Shown here: one piece after another, positions 37,622-44,837 of the stretch
Numbering within the stretch: position 1 is the stretch's first letter
Layout of the letters: each line of letters begins with the position of its first letter
DNA from: Arthrobacter crusticola
GTDB taxonomy: Bacteria > Actinomycetota > Actinomycetes > Actinomycetales > Micrococcaceae
Direction: 5' to 3'
DNA length: 64,000 nt
NCBI RefSeq assembly: GCF_004357995.1
Contig: NZ_SMTK01000001.1
Location: 682,001-746,000, forward strand
Translations under genes and position numbers: made by a program
The notes under the pieces: generated by a model
Databases searched by the model: none
Told to the model about the DNA's origin: nothing
Seen by the model: only the letters and a program-made list of their open reading frames with translations

Positions 37622-38146
37622 ATGAAACGGCGTAAGAGGCGGGTACAGAATTCGACCGGGGTGCGGCTGACCCTGATCCTGGGGTCCGCGGTGCAGGGGG
37701 CCTGCGCGGGCCTCGTGGGCGCCGCCGCCATGACCCTCGGCGAGAAAATCGAGCAGGCGCTGACCAAGCGGCCCGACTCGTATGTTCCGGGACGCACGCT
37801 GCGCACCCTGCTCGGCCGGCCGGTGTCGGACCGGGCGAAACCGGCCGCGGCCAATGTGGCGATGCACTGGGGAACGGGCGCGCTGCTCGGGGCGCTCCGG
37901 GGCATCTGGGCCATGACCGGCATCCGCGGGGGCGCCGCCAACGCCACCCACACCGTGGTGCGCCTCGCCTTCGACCAGACCCTGGAGAACGCGACGGGCG
38001 CCGGTGCGCCGCCGTCGCTCTGGCCGGTCGGGGAGAAGACGGTGGACTACCTCCACAAGGCGGTCTACTCCCTCGTCACGGGAGCTGCGGCCGACCGGTG
38101 GATCGCCCCGCGGCTGATCTCACGGCGGGGTGTCCGCAGCCACTGA
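37622..38146 (+). CDS. Hypothetical membrane-associated protein, 174 aa
   Basis: I do not recognise the family with certainty. A very basic N-terminus (KRRKRRVQ) precedes a small-residue-rich hydrophobic segment ('GSAVQGACAGLVGAAAMTLGE'-like region over ~22 residues). A second weakly hydrophobic stretch lies near 75-95 and a third near 140-155. The pattern resembles proteins that insert several short helices, such as DUF1440-type proteins. It follows the small lipoprotein by 57 bases and is convergent with the receiver gene. Confidence 0.6.
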   Translation: MKRRKRRVQNSTGVRLTLILGSAVQGACAGLVGAAAMTLGEKIEQALTKRPDSYVPGRTLRTLLGRPVSDRAKPAAANVAMHWGTGALLGALRGIWAMTGIRGGAANATHTVVRLAFDQTLENATGAGAPPSLWPVGEKTVDYLHKAVYSLVTGAAADRWIAPRLISRRGVRSH

Positions 38147-38168
38147 GCAGACCCGGGATGGTTGCTGC

Positions 38169-38564
38169 CTAGGACGGGACCGGCACGTTGCGTTTGTCCA
38201 GGCCGTCCTCAATGCGCCGGCGCAGCTCCGCAGGGCGGAAGGGCTTGGTGAGGTATTCGTCGGCCCCCGCCTCCGCGCCGCGGGCCTCATCGCGGGGGTC
38301 GGCGCGCGCGGTGAGCATGACGATCAGGGTTGAGGAAAACCGGCGGATCCGCCGTGCCACCTCAAACCCGTCGATGTCGGGCAGGCCGACGTCGAGAGTA
38401 ACCACCTGCGGGGCGATCCGCCGCACCATCTCGACCCCCGCCTGGCCCGCGGGCGCGGTGTGCACGGTGAATCCGAATCCCGTGAGCACCGCGTGGAGGA
38501 GGTCGCGGACGTCGTCGTCGTCTTCAATGACCACCGCGGCACGCGCTGGTTTATCGTCTTGCAT
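38169..38564 (-). CDS. Single-domain response regulator (receiver only)
   Basis: A 131-residue CheY-like receiver with no output domain. The acidic pocket is 'IEDDDDVRD', the phosphoacceptor is D58 in 'TLDVGLPDIDG', and K107 lies in 'LTKPF'. The spacing is canonical. TAGACT lies six bases before the ATG, so it is probably leaderless. The DosS-like kinase 2 kb away on the same strand could be a partner, but no direct operon links them. Confidence 0.88.
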   Translation of the reverse strand: MQDDKPARAAVVIEDDDDVRDLLHAVLTGFGFTVHTAPAGQAGVEMVRRIAPQVVTLDVGLPDIDGFEVARRIRRFSSTLIVMLTARADPRDEARGAEAGADEYLTKPFRPAELRRRIEDGLDKRNVPVPS

Positions 38565-38577
38565 TCGGCAAGTCTAC

Positions 38578-38835
38578 TCAACGCGGGGCCGCGGGATGGC
38601 GGCGCCCGAAGAGGAAGTAGGCGATCGGCCCGGCGACGTTGAGGAGACACGCTGCGGCCCATGCGGCCCTGCGGCCCCGGACCGCGGCCGCAGGGCGCCT
38701 GGCGAGGTCGGTGAGCGCAACGGCCATCAGCGTCGCCTGCACCGTTCCCAGCGCCATCACGGCTCGGCGCTGGTCAGGGTCGAGATCCTTCCACGACTTT
38801 CTGCGGGCCTCGCGGCCCCGGATGCTTCGGCTCAT
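38578..38835 (-). CDS. Small membrane protein with PLDc_N-like segment
   Basis: An 85-residue protein with a charged N-terminus and two hydrophobic segments (about 27-42 and 58-78). The second, reading 'AACLLNVAGPIAYFLFGRR', is the hallmark of the phospholipase D N-terminal (PLDc_N) membrane domain, found alone in many small actinobacterial proteins. It lies 13 bases upstream of the receiver gene on the same strand and overlaps that gene's likely promoter. Confidence 0.72.
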   Translation of the reverse strand: MSRSIRGREARRKSWKDLDPDQRRAVMALGTVQATLMAVALTDLARRPAAAVRGRRAAWAAACLLNVAGPIAYFLFGRRHPAAPR

Positions 38836-38895
38836 CCTGAATCCTTTCGGTCGGCGGCGCAGGGCGCCCGTGGCGCCGGCTCCGGCTGAGCGGTG

Positions 38896-39819
38896 TTACG
38901 AGGAATGAGCCGCCTGGGGGGCCGTGACCGCGACCAGGCCGACCCGCAGCTGCGGATCGGGGCGGTGCGGCACATCGGCGGTGATCCGCAGTTCCCAGCG
39001 CACCCGGAACCTCCCGGAATCCAGCGACGGCGACGGCAGGAAGCGCGGAGTGGCGACCTCGAACGGGATCACGGCCTCCGCTCCGGCGGCGGGCAACCCC
39101 TCCGTCACGGTGGTCGTGACGATCGTGTTTTCGGTGTGGCGGGGATGCTTCTGGGGGCGTTCACCGGACTGGCCCGCCGGCGTGGGCCCGTAGGCGACCG
39201 CCTCAAGCATTACCAGCTCCACCCGGACCGAACGCAGGGCTCCGTGGCGCGGTGCCACCCGGAGCCGCCCGGTGATCGGCGTCGCGTTGGTCAGGATGCG
39301 CCCCGAGAGTTCGACCAGCTCGAGGGACGCCGTCCACTCGACGGTGGTTTCCGGATCCTGGGCGGCATCGGAGCTGCAGCCCGCCGCGGCCGACTGGACG
39401 GTGAACATGCCCTCGCCTACGGATTCCGAGTCGTCCTGGGCGGACATGCGCACCCGAAGGATCCAGGAGATGCTGATCAGCTCCCCCCGCACGGAGGGAA
39501 GGTTGAGCGCCGGGACGGTGACGACGGCGCGGGTCCGATAGGTCTCCCCCGCCATCACCCTGCCGGCCGGCGGCAGGGGCTGCTGCGAGATGACATGGGT
39601 GGAGCGGTCCCGGGCGGTGTAGATCACGCCGTGGAGGTTGGTGCGGCCGTACCCGTAGTCGATCACCTGGACTACCTCGAGGACCACCTGATCGGCCACC
39701 ACGTCGCGTTCGGCGACGGCCTCGATGTCGACGGCGAAGCTTTCGCCCTCCACCACGGCACGTTTGGCCGGAAGCGGACGGATATCGATATCCAAGGGGG
39801 GTGTTCTGCGCTGCTGCAT
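38896..39819 (-). CDS. Arrestin-like (Spo0M-like) beta-sandwich protein, 307 aa
   Basis: The sequence is dominated by alternating beta-strand patterns: 'RAVVEGESFAVDIEAVAERDVVADQVVLEVVQVIDYGYG' (two strands of an Ig-like sandwich), 'TRAVVTVPALNLPSVRGELISISWILRV' and a second sandwich after about residue 190. This two-domain arrangement resembles arrestin-fold proteins such as Spo0M; the family call is an impression, not a match. No signal peptide. The gene ends 60 bases from the start of the small membrane protein. Confidence 0.5.
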   Translation of the reverse strand: MQQRRTPPLDIDIRPLPAKRAVVEGESFAVDIEAVAERDVVADQVVLEVVQVIDYGYGRTNLHGVIYTARDRSTHVISQQPLPPAGRVMAGETYRTRAVVTVPALNLPSVRGELISISWILRVRMSAQDDSESVGEGMFTVQSAAAGCSSDAAQDPETTVEWTASLELVELSGRILTNATPITGRLRVAPRHGALRSVRVELVMLEAVAYGPTPAGQSGERPQKHPRHTENTIVTTTVTEGLPAAGAEAVIPFEVATPRFLPSPSLDSGRFRVRWELRITADVPHRPDPQLRVGLVAVTAPQAAHSS

Positions 39820-39832
39820 CGGCCGGCCTTTC

Positions 39833-40087
39833 CTACCCCTGAGGGAGCGGCGGATTCAACGGCGCCGCCAGCTGCTGTCCGGCGGCTTCATCGGACTTCC
39901 GCGCAATGAAGCGCAGGTCCTCGGGGGTCAACTCCATCTGGCCGTGCTGGCTATCGCTCTCCGGGTGGCCTGCGGCCCGACGGACAGCCCCGGCCACCGT
40001 CCGCGGAAGCACCGCACATCCGCGGTTCGTCGTGATCCATCGGCGGGTGGGCTGGTCAAGCTTGTCCCAGGTTTCCTCAAGGCTCAT
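39833..40087 (-). CDS. Small hypothetical protein, 84 aa
   Basis: Begins 'MSLEETWDKLDQPTRRWITTNRGCAVLP' (shown in part) and ends with a Pro-rich tail. A middle 'LTPEDLRFIARKSDE' helix is present. I recall similar short proteins in Arthrobacter-like genomes but no assigned function. It ends 13 bases from the start of the arrestin-like gene, suggesting a shared transcript. The ATG at 40087 is preferred over the open frame that runs to 40222 into the kinase gene's 3' end. Confidence 0.6.
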   Translation of the reverse strand: MSLEETWDKLDQPTRRWITTNRGCAVLPRTVAGAVRRAAGHPESDSQHGQMELTPEDLRFIARKSDEAAGQQLAAPLNPPLPQG

Positions 40088-40181
40088 TAAATGCTCCGAT
40101 CCGTTGGAGATGGTGCGCCGTCGCCACAAGTAAAGCGCAAGTTCCGGCCCCTGCACAGGGGCTTTCGTCCTCCACCGGCCC

Positions 40182-41888
40182 TTACCGCGGAAGAGGCACC
40201 GTCCACGAGAGCCTCGTTCCATGGCCCGGGGCGCTCACGGGGACAAACGTTCCCCCGACCGCCGCCGCACGGTGCTGCATATTGGAGAGGCCGCTGGTGC
40301 GGCCGGGGTCCCGGAAGCCCTTCCCGTCGTCCTCGATCAGCAGCTTCACCTGCCCTCCCCGCACCGAGACGGTGATGGTGATGTGGAGCGCCCCCGAGTG
40401 CCGCAGGGCATTCGACAGGCCCTCCGAGAGCACGGCCAGCAGGTGACCTGCCACCGGTTCCGGTATGCCGTCCACCGGGCCGCGCATCTGCAGCTCCGGC
40501 GTCGTGCCCGCCTGCCAGGTGCCGTCCTGCACCGCCCGGACGATCCGTGAGCTAAGCCGCTCGCGCCCGCCGTTGTCGCCGAGGGCGTAGATGGTGTCCC
40601 GCAGCCCCCGGATCGTCTCATCGAGTTCCCCGGTGATGGAGTTGATACGCTGCTGCGCGACCGGGTCCGTTGTGTGGCGGCGCAGGCTCTGCACGCTCAG
40701 TCCGGCGGCGAAAATGCGCTGGATCACCAGGTCGTGGAGGTCCCGCGCGATGCGGTCCCGGTCGGAGAAGACGATCTGCTGCTCGCGCATGAGGTGGGCG
40801 TGGGCCAGCTCCAGGGCCAGCGCCGCACGCGAGCAGTACACCTCGTTCATCTCGACGTCGACCTGCCCGTACCCGGGCGCTCCGAACGGGCGGGCAAGGA
40901 TCAGGATTCCGGCGTGGGTACCCTTGTGGCCCAGTGCCGCCACCAGGACGGGACCGAGTTCCTCAGCGGCCGCCGCCCCCGCCCAGAGGTCAGGGGCCCG
41001 GCACAGGACGGAATCCCCGGTGGTCAGCAGGTGCGCGATGGGAGTGCTGTCGGCGGCGATGGCGTGGCCCTTAACCAGGTGGCTGTCGCCGACGGCCGTG
41101 CCGCAGCGCAGCACGCGGCCGCCCGGATCGGGGAAAGCGATCATCGCCACTGCGGACTCGGACTGCTCGAGGGCGCCTTCGGCAATCAGGTCGAGGCCCG
41201 CGGCTTCGGCCGTGGGGTTGCCCATCAGTCGTTCGCTGACGTCCATGCCGGCCTCGAGCCACCGTTGGCGCCGCGTGGCGTCCTCGAACAGGCGCGCGTT
41301 TTCGATGGCGACGCCCGCCGCTGCGGCCAGCGCCACGGCGAGCTCCTCATCTTCGGCCGTGAAGTGCTCCCCGCCCTCCTTCTCGGTGAGGTAGAGGTTT
41401 CCGAAGGCAACTCCGCGCACCCGCACCGGAACGCCGAGGAACGTGCGCATGGGCGGGTGGTGTTCGGGGAAGCCGCTGGCCTGCGGGTGCTCGTTGAGGT
41501 CGGAAAGGCGAATCCGCCGGGGGTCCCGGATCAGGTGCCCCAGCACCCCGCGGCCCTGGGGCATCTCCCCGACGCGGCGGGCCTGGTCCTCCTCCATGCC
41601 GACCGTGACGAAGTGGGTCAGGGCGTCGTCGGGTCCGATGACCCCCAGCGCCCCGTAGCGCGCCCCCACAAGCTGGCAGGCGGAGGTCACCACCCGGTCA
41701 AGCACCGCCTCGAGGCTGAGGTTCTCCGCGAGGGACATGACCGCGGAGAGCAGGCCCTGAAGCCGTTCCTGGGTGTGGAGGAGGTCCTCGGTGTGCGGCA
41801 GGAAGTCCTTGAGCACCTGGTCCGCGCCGGCCAGGGAGGACTGCGCCACGGACGCACGGCGGGGGCCCGGCGCCGACGCCGTCACCAT
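40182..41888 (-). CDS. DosS/DevS-like GAF-GAF sensor histidine kinase
   Basis: A 568-residue cytosolic kinase. Two GAF domains occupy about 45-200 and 215-370. The first contains 'FPEHHPPMRTFLGVPVRVRGVAFGNLYLTEK', split over a conserved His-Pro-Pro-Met motif that in DevS-type GAF domains lies close to the heme; heme binding here is inference. The HisKA_3 box 'DRIARDLHDLVIQR' gives phosphoacceptor H385, and the HATPase has 'LSEGLSNALRHS', 'DDGKGF' and 'GHGTRLSW'. The ATG at 41888 is chosen. The cognate NarL-type regulator is not adjacent. A phased repeat array lies upstream at 42115. Confidence 0.9.
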   Translation of the reverse strand: MVTASAPGPRRASVAQSSLAGADQVLKDFLPHTEDLLHTQERLQGLLSAVMSLAENLSLEAVLDRVVTSACQLVGARYGALGVIGPDDALTHFVTVGMEEDQARRVGEMPQGRGVLGHLIRDPRRIRLSDLNEHPQASGFPEHHPPMRTFLGVPVRVRGVAFGNLYLTEKEGGEHFTAEDEELAVALAAAAGVAIENARLFEDATRRQRWLEAGMDVSERLMGNPTAEAAGLDLIAEGALEQSESAVAMIAFPDPGGRVLRCGTAVGDSHLVKGHAIAADSTPIAHLLTTGDSVLCRAPDLWAGAAAAEELGPVLVAALGHKGTHAGILILARPFGAPGYGQVDVEMNEVYCSRAALALELAHAHLMREQQIVFSDRDRIARDLHDLVIQRIFAAGLSVQSLRRHTTDPVAQQRINSITGELDETIRGLRDTIYALGDNGGRERLSSRIVRAVQDGTWQAGTTPELQMRGPVDGIPEPVAGHLLAVLSEGLSNALRHSGALHITITVSVRGGQVKLLIEDDGKGFRDPGRTSGLSNMQHRAAAVGGTFVPVSAPGHGTRLSWTVPLPR

Positions 41889-42236
41889 AGTCCACCGCCC
41901 GCGGCCCGGCCCGGCCCGGCAGGGGGCGCCTCCAGGCGTCCGCCCTCCGGCGGCCGTTCCACCGGCTGCGCGTAGATCGCATCGATTCCGGCCATTGCAC
42001 TCCCCCGACTTCGGCAAACCCACTTGGCAGCGGAAGGATCCCCTTCCGCCGGTCAGCACCCCAGCCTGCCCGCATCGCGACCTTCAGCGGGAGGCGCTCC
42101 TTCGCCCCGCCGCATCCTAAATAATCCTGCGTCTTTCCTAAAGTTTTCCTCTATTTTTCCTACACTGTCCATTCTGCGGGTGTTTTCCCGCCCAGCGCCA
42201 CCCCGCGTGTCCTCCGGCGTCACGCGCGGGAGGCCG
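41889..42236. other. 348-base region upstream of the DosS-like kinase
   Basis: No gene is evident between the kinase start and the 3' end of the LigD-type polymerase gene. Bases 42112-42172 are markedly AT-richer than the surroundings and carry the phased repeats listed separately. The kinase promoter is expected between these repeats and 41888. Confidence 0.5.
42115..42161 (-). promoter_or_regulatory. Array of five helically phased TCCT/AGGA repeats
   Basis: TCCT occurs on the plus strand at 42115, 42125, 42136, 42147 and 42158, spaced 10, 11, 11 and 11 bases, mostly preceded by T-runs (TTTCCT). On the minus strand these are AGGA(A) units. Direct repeats on an 11-base pitch are the usual binding pattern of OmpR/PhoP-type winged-helix response regulators. 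The phased A-tracts could also bend DNA. Located 227 bases upstream of the kinase gene. Confidence 0.6.
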
Positions 42237-43259
42237 CTACCCCTTGGCGCGCGCCCGGCTTGGCTGCACGCGCGGGGGCTCGCCGGGCATCTTCGGGTAG
42301 TCCGGGGGAAAGGGAAGCTCGCCGAGGCCGGCCTCCACGTCCCGCTCCCACCAGCCAAGCAGCGTGTCGATGGTGCCCGGTTCGGAGTGCATGTCCGCCC
42401 ACGGATCCCCCCGGTCCGCCAGCCGCGCCGGCACTGTCACCACCGTGAAGCTGCGGGGGTCAGCGGTGCCCAGTTCGTCCCAGGCGAGGGGGCAGGACAC
42501 CGGGGCGTGGGGCAGGGGGCGCGGACTGTACGCCCCGGCCATGGTGCGGTCCCGGTTGGCCTGGTTGTAGTCGACGAAGACGAGCCGGCCGCGTTCCTCC
42601 TTCCACCACGCCGTCGTCACCTTATCGGGCATGCGCCGCTCGAGTTCGCGGGCGGCGGCGATGACGGCGTGCCGAACCTCGAGGAACTCGTGCTCCGGGC
42701 GGATTGGAGCGAAGACATGGAGTCCGCGGTTGCCCGAGGTCTTCACGAAGGAGGTCAGTCCGGCCTCCGCAAGCACCGAGCGCAGTTCAAGAGCGGCCGG
42801 AACTGCCTCATCGAAACCGGTGCCCGGCTGCGGATCGAGGTCGATCCTCAGCTGGTCGGGGTTGTCCGGGTTGCCGGCACGCGAAGCCCAGGGGTGAAAC
42901 ACGAGGGTATTCATCTGAGCGGCCCACACCACGGCAGCCGGCTCGTCGAGGACCAGCTGCGGGTGGGACCGGCCGCTGGGGTACACCACCGGCACGGAGC
43001 GAACGAAGTCGGGTGCGCCCTTGGGGGGATTCTTGGAGAAGAACTGCTCGCCGTCGATGTCGCCGGAAAACCGCTGCAGGGACACCGGCCGGTCGCCGTT
43101 CGCGGCGAGGAACGCCTCCTGTACCCCGATGAGGTACTGCACCAGGTCGAGCTTCGTCAGGCCGAGCTCGGGCCAGAGCACCCGGCTGGGACTGGAGACG
43201 CGTACGTCGCGGGCGCCATGAGGGCCGGGGACGGAGACGGTGGTTTCTTCGCGGGCCAT
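42237..43259 (-). CDS. Stand-alone LigD-type polymerase (primase-like) domain protein
   Basis: A 340-residue archaeo-eukaryotic-primase-like polymerase of the kind found in bacterial LigD. Visible motifs are 'SPSRVLWPELGLTKLDLVQYL', 'EQFFSKNPPKGAPDFV', the catalytic acid pair in 'LRIDLDPQPG' and 'FVDYNQANRDRTMAGAYSPRP'. Such domains add nucleotides or ribonucleotides during non-homologous end joining. No ligase, phosphoesterase or Ku gene is in the window, so it may serve another repair role or work with distant partners. The ATG at 43259 is the natural start. Confidence 0.9.
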   Translation of the reverse strand: MAREETTVSVPGPHGARDVRVSSPSRVLWPELGLTKLDLVQYLIGVQEAFLAANGDRPVSLQRFSGDIDGEQFFSKNPPKGAPDFVRSVPVVYPSGRSHPQLVLDEPAAVVWAAQMNTLVFHPWASRAGNPDNPDQLRIDLDPQPGTGFDEAVPAALELRSVLAEAGLTSFVKTSGNRGLHVFAPIRPEHEFLEVRHAVIAAARELERRMPDKVTTAWWKEERGRLVFVDYNQANRDRTMAGAYSPRPLPHAPVSCPLAWDELGTADPRSFTVVTVPARLADRGDPWADMHSEPGTIDTLLGWWERDVEAGLGELPFPPDYPKMPGEPPRVQPSRARAKG

Positions 43260-43568
43260 GGGAGCACCCTACTCCGGGGGGCCCGCCCCGTCAGGGCCGG
43301 TCCTACGGGAAAAGGAAAACGGTGCCGGATCGGGAAGTACCTGTGACGGCGGCAAATTCCGCGACCGGCCCAGGGGGATCAGCCACGGCCGGTCAACGAC
43401 GGAGAACATTGTGCCGGAGGTGCCACGGAATATATTGGAGATCGATTGCTCAGTCTTTGTTCCAGGTTTACCCTTTAAGGCAGCTCACATTACGCCTTCG
43501 TTGTTCTCGGTCGACGCTGGCTCCGGGCAGCTGGATACATCAGATTCCTAGTAGGAACAGCGATCAAC
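43260..43568. other. 309-base region upstream of the GH16 gene
   Basis: No gene is visible. Base composition shifts here: from about 43430 the sequence becomes clearly AT-richer (for example 'ATTGCTCAGTCTTTGTTCC'), and this continues into the GH16 gene. It looks like the left edge of an acquired segment. Promoter hexamers were not assigned. Confidence 0.45.
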
Positions 43569-44837
43569 ATGAAGGCTACGAGCGTTCAGGCGTTGCGAAC
43601 CCGGCAAAACCGATATGGCATGCAGTTCCGGCTTAGATGCGCAGCGGTCGCATCGTCAATTCTGATGATCTTCGCAATCATCACTCCGACAACCGCAAGC
43701 GCCGCGGCCACAACCTCGTTAGTCATGGACTCCTACGTTCAGGCGGACAGGGCGACTTCAAATTTTGGGACCAGCACCCGTTTATCTACAGAAGGCCGCG
43801 CGTATATCTGGCGGAACTCGCTCCTACGGTTCTCCGTGCAGGTTCCCGCTGGCGAGCACGTTGTTTCAGCCAAACTTCGGGCGTATTCCGAGGCATCTGC
43901 AACTTCCACCGAGTTTGTGGATGTCTTCACTACATCCGGCGGCTGGACAGAGAAGGGCGTCACGTGGAATAACGCACCGGCACGCGGGACATGGCTTGGG
44001 AAGGCCGGCGGATTCGCCACCGGCTCCTGGGTGGAATGGGATGTAACCAAGGGTGTCAACCCGAAGGGCGGCGAGCAGAACTTCAAGCTGGAAAGCAACG
44101 CGAAGAAGTGGATCGCGTTCAAGTCAAAGGAATCGTCAAACTCCGCACTGCGCCCAAGACTGGTGGTGACGACTGCGCCCGACACGATAACTTCCACCGA
44201 GGCGGCCGTAGTCCATGGGTGGGGCGCGAGGGTGGCCGGGGACGAGTTCAATTACACCGGCGCGCCCGATGCCACGAAGTGGAATGTCTACAACAGTGCC
44301 GGCCACGCGGGCAATGGTCTCCGGAGCCCTCAGCAGGTTACCGTGGACGGTTCCAAAATGGTTATGACTGGAACCCCTGACGGCACGACTGCTGGAATGG
44401 GCGCGAAGTTTTCAAACCAGAAGTACGGGCGTTGGGAAGTCCGGGCGGCCGGGTCCGGTGACAACGAATACCACATGGTGTCCATCCTGTGGCCCGATAG
44501 CGAGAATTGGCCGTGTGACGGCGAGATTGACTACGCGGAGACGACCGGCGACTGGAACGTCATTAAGTTCTTCCACCACTATGGGTGCTCAAACTCGCAG
44601 ACTTATGCGATTAGGCCTCTCGACGTAAAGCAGTTCCACAACTACGCGGTTGACTGGTCTCCGCGCGGAATCGTGGGCTACGTCGATGGCGTGAAGTGGT
44701 TTGAAGACACCGACCCCGCGCATCAGCCTCCCGGTCCGATGCACCAGACCCTGCAACTGGACTGGTTCCCTGACAGCACTGCCAATGGCGCCGGCGAAAT
44801 GCGGGTGGACTGGGTCCGCGTGTACGCGGCGGGCTGA
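43569..44837 (+). CDS. Secreted DNRLRE-domain GH16 family glycoside hydrolase
   Basis: A 422-residue exported protein. A signal peptide ends near residue 45 (hydrophobic core 'SSILMIFAIITPTTASA' then an Ala-rich cleavage site). Residues about 50-205 resemble a DNRLRE/CBM96 module ('SYVQADRATSNFGTSTRLS', 'GVTWNNAP'). Residues about 220-421 form the GH16 jelly roll. The catalytic motif EIDYAE lies at 319-324, with E319 as nucleophile and E324 as acid/base. Substrate could be a beta-1,3/1,4-glucan or a bacterial exopolysaccharide. The gene is lower in GC than its neighbours and uses rare TTA codons, which suggests transfer. Confidence 0.88.
   Translation: MKATSVQALRTRQNRYGMQFRLRCAAVASSILMIFAIITPTTASAAATTSLVMDSYVQADRATSNFGTSTRLSTEGRAYIWRNSLLRFSVQVPAGEHVVSAKLRAYSEASATSTEFVDVFTTSGGWTEKGVTWNNAPARGTWLGKAGGFATGSWVEWDVTKGVNPKGGEQNFKLESNAKKWIAFKSKESSNSALRPRLVVTTAPDTITSTEAAVVHGWGARVAGDEFNYTGAPDATKWNVYNSAGHAGNGLRSPQQVTVDGSKMVMTGTPDGTTAGMGAKFSNQKYGRWEVRAAGSGDNEYHMVSILWPDSENWPCDGEIDYAETTGDWNVIKFFHHYGCSNSQTYAIRPLDVKQFHNYAVDWSPRGIVGYVDGVKWFEDTDPAHQPPGPMHQTLQLDWFPDSTANGAGEMRVDWVRVYAAG

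Follow-up and report, generated by a model that had tools for sequence, protein, structure and literature searches.

The stretch of DNA analyzed in this work (the window) comprises 64 kb of a genome of 3.67 Mb (G000:C1:682001-746000). An array of short TCCT/AGGA repeats was located between a gene with a LigD primase-polymerase domain and a gene for a GAF-GAF-HisKA_3-HATPase kinase, both on the minus strand (Table 1). The initial annotation had placed the repeats upstream of a DosS-like kinase gene; a GAF-GAF-HisKA_3 kinase is indeed encoded downstream, although at some distance, the nearest core lying 227 bp from the ATG at 41888, and the coding strand reads AGGA. A leader of about 120 nt and a 37-codon leader ORF separate the array from the kinase; the ORF was open in all three species considered below, and its 7-nt overlap with the kinase start suggests translational coupling. 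The predicted RNA structure of 41886-42110 was not unusual (folding z of 0.23, with 118 of 200 shuffles folding at least as well), no known RNA families were found in 38000-44000 at E values up to 1, no sigma-70-type promoter was detected by a scan of 41850-42300, and reading of the three-species alignment gave no conserved TANNNT on the kinase strand between the array and the leader ORF. Adjoining the LigD gene, a plus-strand gene (43569-44837) encodes CBM96 and glycosyl hydrolase 16 domains; it lies in a region of reduced GC content and may be of foreign origin.

Table 1. Coordinates in the window of the repeat array, the leader region, and the neighboring genes.
Feature	Position	Strand	Basis
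Array, five TCCT cores (AGGA on the kinase strand), steps of 10, 11, 11, and 11	42115..42161	.	Sequence, shuffles, three-species alignment
Histidine kinase gene, GAF-GAF-HisKA_3-HATPase, presumed target	40182..41888	-	ORF list, Pfam domains
LigD primase-polymerase-domain gene, upstream, same direction	42237..43259	-	ORF list, domains
Presumed untranslated leader, array to leader ORF	42000..42114	-	Three-species alignment
Perfect 8-bp inverted repeat with 4-nt loop, in the leader	42030..42049	-	Sequence; stem retained in G027, with a loop shorter by one base
Leader ORF, 37 codons	41882..41995	-	Translation; overlaps the kinase start by 7 nt
Small ORF without Pfam match, kinase block	39833..40222	-	ORF list, domain search
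Arrestin-C-like gene, kinase block	38896..39819	-	ORF list, domain search
Receiver-only response regulator	38169..38564	-	Domain search

Layout and statistics of the array

TCCT begins at positions 42115, 42125, 42136, 42147, and 42158, with the steps given in Table 1. The initial annotation was thus right in describing direct repeats in helical phase (five cores at 10-11 bp steps) inside an AT-rich island, since the 47-bp span had a GC content of 0.34 and the surrounding 100-base windows had values of about 0.66 to 0.78. A run of T in front of most copies, also claimed there, holds for three of the five cores (42136, 42147, and 42158, preceded by two, three, and four extra T, respectively) and fails for those at 42115 and 42125, which have A in front.

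Across all 256 tetramers, the 64-kb window contained no second chain of five units spaced by 10-11 bp. Dinucleotide shuffles of the whole window never produced five TCCT or AGGA at 10-12 bp steps (0 of 200, with four units in one shuffle and three units in four). When shuffling was carried out in 200-bp blocks and any tetramer was accepted, chains of five were obtained in none of 150 cases, chains of four in 33, and chains of three in 117; shuffling of the island itself (42101-42175) gave no chain of five in 20,000 trials and a chain of four in two. Being the only chain of five in the window, and one that no shuffle reproduced, the array is real and exceeds what is expected by chance. Tandem Repeats Finder reported at the same place 2.6 copies of TTTCCTAAAGT, with 77% matches and a score of 37.

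Conservation and provenance of the array

The spacer that contains the array was present in 2 of 37 other genomes of the genus (G027 and G033; 91% identity), all other matches being pieces of 30-42 bases; the nearest named relatives at the locus were Arthrobacter sp. MSA 4-2 and an uncultured Arthrobacter (AVDCRST_MAG83). The initial annotation had considered that the spacing might be lost in close relatives, and all five cores and their steps were kept in both species holding the locus. In the alignment of the three species, variable columns amounted to 0 of 20 in the cores and 7 of 27 in the linkers (P = 0.014, a value that rests on three closely related species and seven variable columns), and sliding the frame by 4-6 bases in either direction brought four to six variable columns into the shifted core positions. 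The array as a whole, in contrast, is no more conserved than its surroundings and is unusual only in how the changes are distributed: variable columns were 7 of 47 in the array, 9 of 75 in the spacer on the LigD side, and, as raw counts, 5 of 115 for the leader (42114-42000), 22 of 304 for the end of LigD, and 46 of 603 for the start of the kinase. By reading of the alignment, units 2 and 3 of G033 share the word AATTTAGGAAA. Phased A-tracts, to which the initial annotation had drawn attention as a cause of DNA bending, are not the conserved part of the array, given that the linkers vary among the three species whereas the AGGA cores do not. At the protein level, comparison of 38896-41888 of the window with L048 and L049 gave 98% identity for the kinase among the three species, 86-89% for the small ORF of the same block, and 89-91% for the arrestin-like protein.

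The arrangement of the neighboring genes differed outside this clade of three species. In three of the five non-clade loci tested (G016, G015, and G005), the receiver-only regulator (77-80% identity to that of the window) lies no more than about 100 bp after LigD; as for the other two, L205 had a receiver homologue about 0.8 kb downstream of LigD and L192 had none in the available stretch. The window's clade presents about 3.7 kb between LigD and the receiver gene, made up of the kinase, the small ORF, the arrestin-like gene, and a further small ORF. The array sits at the LigD-side edge of this kinase block, which G016, G015, and G005 lack at the corresponding place. Three or more phased AGGA occurred in none of the 27 non-clade LigD loci over the 430 bases downstream (L194 offered fewer than 430), so that carriage of the array by LigD was not supported and the array is assigned to the kinase block; by reading, L205 has three TCCT downstream of LigD, in apparent coding sequence.

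The initial annotation had also proposed searching for the unit upstream of related kinase genes. It was found in both of the other clade species (2 of 2), whereas outside the clade the array was absent from the available flank of 23 genus loci (L011-L033; one locus per genome, further copies left out), of the one plasmid locus, and of five further loci (L050-L054). A homologue with 60% identity to the window's kinase is encoded on a conjugative plasmid of Arthrobacter sp. U41. Among plasmids, copies of the spacer were limited to three records with pieces of the LigD end, covering at most 12% of the query.

Comparison with known operators and with related repeats

Direct repeat units at 11-nt steps are bound by PhoP in Streptomyces (PMC2605767, PMC7866108), and arrays of four and five such units, some of them poorly conserved, are described at glpQ1 and glpQ2 (PMC7866108). 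The array of the window resembles these PHO boxes of PhoP, a regulator of the OmpR/PhoB family, in its 11-nt direct repeats and in the number of units per promoter, which reaches five (PMC7866108, PMC2605767). Two or more direct repeat units at 11-nt steps are indeed present, three of the four steps of the array being of 11. Since glpQ1 and glpQ2 carry four- and five-unit PhoP arrays (PMC7866108), a five-unit array represents a known layout. On its sequence, the array is a true, helically phased, and modestly conserved direct repeat with an operator layout of a known kind.

The core, in contrast, sets the array apart from PHO boxes: it reads TCCT/AGGA, whereas pairs of GTTCA were found in the upstream regions of pstS in the genus, including L281 of the own genome, and neither GTTCA nor TGAAC occurs in the spacer (41889-42236). 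As a control, identical heptamer pairs in the upstream regions of pstS-family genes of the genus peaked at a distance of 11 bp (19 pairs, with no other step between 8 and 15 exceeding 3), and GTTCA was the most frequent word, occurring as a pair 11 bp apart in 11 of 30 stretches; ORFs for this control were chosen automatically, one locus per genome, with at least 7 of the 30 stretches coming from a wrong ORF and one of the two matches of the own genome used. GTTCA is the core of the Streptomyces PhoP unit as well. A PHO box was therefore ruled out on the core, there being no GTTCA in the spacer and GTTCA being repeated upstream of pstS in the genus.

Binding by an OmpR/PhoP-type regulator, as suggested in the initial annotation, was not supported beyond the spacing: the spacer lacks GTTCA, and a LuxR-type regulator (receiver plus GerE) adjoins the kinase in five of the six relatives read (L051-L054 and L244, the latter on the plasmid; L050 had none in its flank). 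With relatives next to LuxR-type regulators in most of the loci read, it is improbable that the kinase itself has a partner of the OmpR type; the regulator of the kinase block itself in the window is receiver-only. The genome has 14 matches to Trans_reg_C, so an unlinked OmpR-type protein is possible, and judged by its spacing an OmpR reading of the array is likewise possible. An OmpR-type regulator other than PhoP is the likeliest class of putative binder, and a BldC-like or other direct-repeat binder would also be possible. BldC binds as multimers to a variable number of AT-rich direct repeats, with a unit AATTXXXX(C) and 9 bp per subunit (PMC5859096). Its operators, on which this MerR-like protein forms a head-to-tail filament, are similar to the array in being AT-rich direct repeats of variable number, but differ in having the 9-bp AATTXXXX(C) unit, as opposed to steps of 10-11 and an AGGA core (PMC5859096). 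Based on the step (10-11 vs. 9 bp, PMC5859096), a BldC site was ruled out.

A further TCCT repeat was detected in the genus upstream of genes that we named NERD-type by eye. TCCT-N7-TCCT occurred in 8 of 12 of these upstream regions (L158-L169), and none of the other gaps between N2 and N14 was present in more than one of the 12, four of the loci having been chosen with a pattern that contained TCCT-N7-TCCT and the promoters being also related by descent; among the remaining eight loci it occurred in four, and the other gaps in none. In L161 and L168, the two promoters in which the distance was counted, TAGGCT starts 29 nt downstream of the first base of the last phased TCCT. The repeat looks like a conserved promoter element. 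It shares with the window array the core word TCCT and the 11-bp step (8 of 12 upstream regions), and TCCT-N7-TCCT is contained in the array. It differs in having two or three units, TCCT on the coding strand, a TAGGCT box after the repeats, and linkers that are for the most part of the TCCTGTGC or TCCTGCGC type. By reading, no TAGGCT-like box was present in the window at 29 nt from the last phased TCCT on the same strand; because this arrangement is missing, the array was not filed under the NERD element.

Searching 38 genomes for TTTCCTANNNTTTTCCT with one mismatch allowed gave 15 matches, as compared with 3 for the reversed control. Six of them fell in the array loci of the three species, another exact match lay in G036:C38, between ORFs named by eye as DinB-like and WYL-like, and eight matches with one mismatch occurred elsewhere, which represents a slight excess outside the array with respect to the control. 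No regulon of the unit was found in the own genome, where both TTTCCTANNNTTTTCCT matches fall inside the array. A family-wide TCCTG regulon (gaps N4-N8, 149 genomes) was rejected, as among the matches listed codon-fitting steps dominate by eye. The own genome has two other places with triple TCCT, one of them before rplM: both here and in G027, several TCCTG, three of them at 11-bp steps, precede rplM by about 330 bp (L038:1564-1615 and L039:1525-1576). This element is found upstream of rplM-rpsI (gene names by eye), and other genomes match only downstream of it, except for a 39-base piece in G002. Of 395 genomes searched in the family, 13 contained four TCCT spaced by exactly 11 bp, namely the three clade members and ten others; the latter were by eye mostly near-identical 11-bp tandem repeats, with G247 as the exception. 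Five similar 11-bp repeats of the TTCCTGCCCGG type were observed in G008 (L043:1503-1550), between ORFs named by eye as ArsC-like and transporter-like.

Proposed role of the array

From the repeats, their phase, their place, and the conservation of their cores, we infer with about an even chance of being right that the array acts as operator for the kinase gene block, on which up to five regulator subunits would bind cooperatively and switch transcription. In such an operator, up to five subunits of a direct-repeat-binding regulator would occupy adjacent sites along the same face of the helix, each of them reading one AGGA(A) core, and their cooperative binding would control how the kinase, arrestin-like, and receiver genes are transcribed. 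The operator would be specific to the block and would work like PhoP (PHO) boxes.

Two other explanations were considered, both of them unlikely. Phased A/T tracts could curve the promoter DNA and aid RNA polymerase in an UP-element-like manner, AGGA merely spacing the tracts. An AT-rich island within GC-rich DNA agrees with this, as do two A5T3 tracts 11 bp apart in G033, but both G027 (AAACGTTT) and the window (AAAATAG, AAAACTTT) have interrupted tracts with every AGGA kept, and units 4 and 5 have no long tract; the explanation by curvature is weakened because A-tracts change while cores do not. The array could otherwise be a decayed 11-bp minisatellite, a short tandem duplication without function that drifts in a promoter spacer. 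The report of Tandem Repeats Finder, the conservation of the whole array at no more than the level of its surroundings, and the ten non-clade genomes of the 395 with four TCCT at exact 11-bp steps, most of them near-identical tandem repeats by eye, are in line with a decayed duplication. However, the units are by eye more diverged than those of the other tandem repeats and the cores are nevertheless untouched in the three species, which weakens this reading, and one step is of 10 instead of 11.

Less probable still, in our opinion, is that the array serves the other strand, or both, as a TCCT-oriented operator for a transcript of the plus strand. NERD promoters carry TCCT-N7-TCCT on the coding strand, with TAGGCT at 29 nt in L161 and L168, and on the plus strand a TACACT that is the same in the three species follows the last core of the array; nevertheless, the 29-nt distance is not found, no -35 match was obtained by reading or by scan, and the transcript would run antisense into LigD.

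Returning to the operator of the kinase block, it is conceivable, if rather doubtful, that the array and the NERD element are two uses of an undescribed class of TCCT/AGGA 11-bp direct-repeat operators in Arthrobacter-type bacteria, distinct from PHO boxes and BldC sites and read by one regulator family, with a five-unit array before a mobile kinase block and an element of two to three units at NERD genes. If a protein binds the array, both together would point to a regulator whose site matched none in the literature searched, which is not to claim that it is absent from print. Should no protein bind, the array would still be instructive as a short tandem repeat located in a promoter spacer. 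If a protein does bind, the array would provide a handle on how the kinase block is switched on, as well as a clean system of five sites in which to study cooperative binding to direct repeats.
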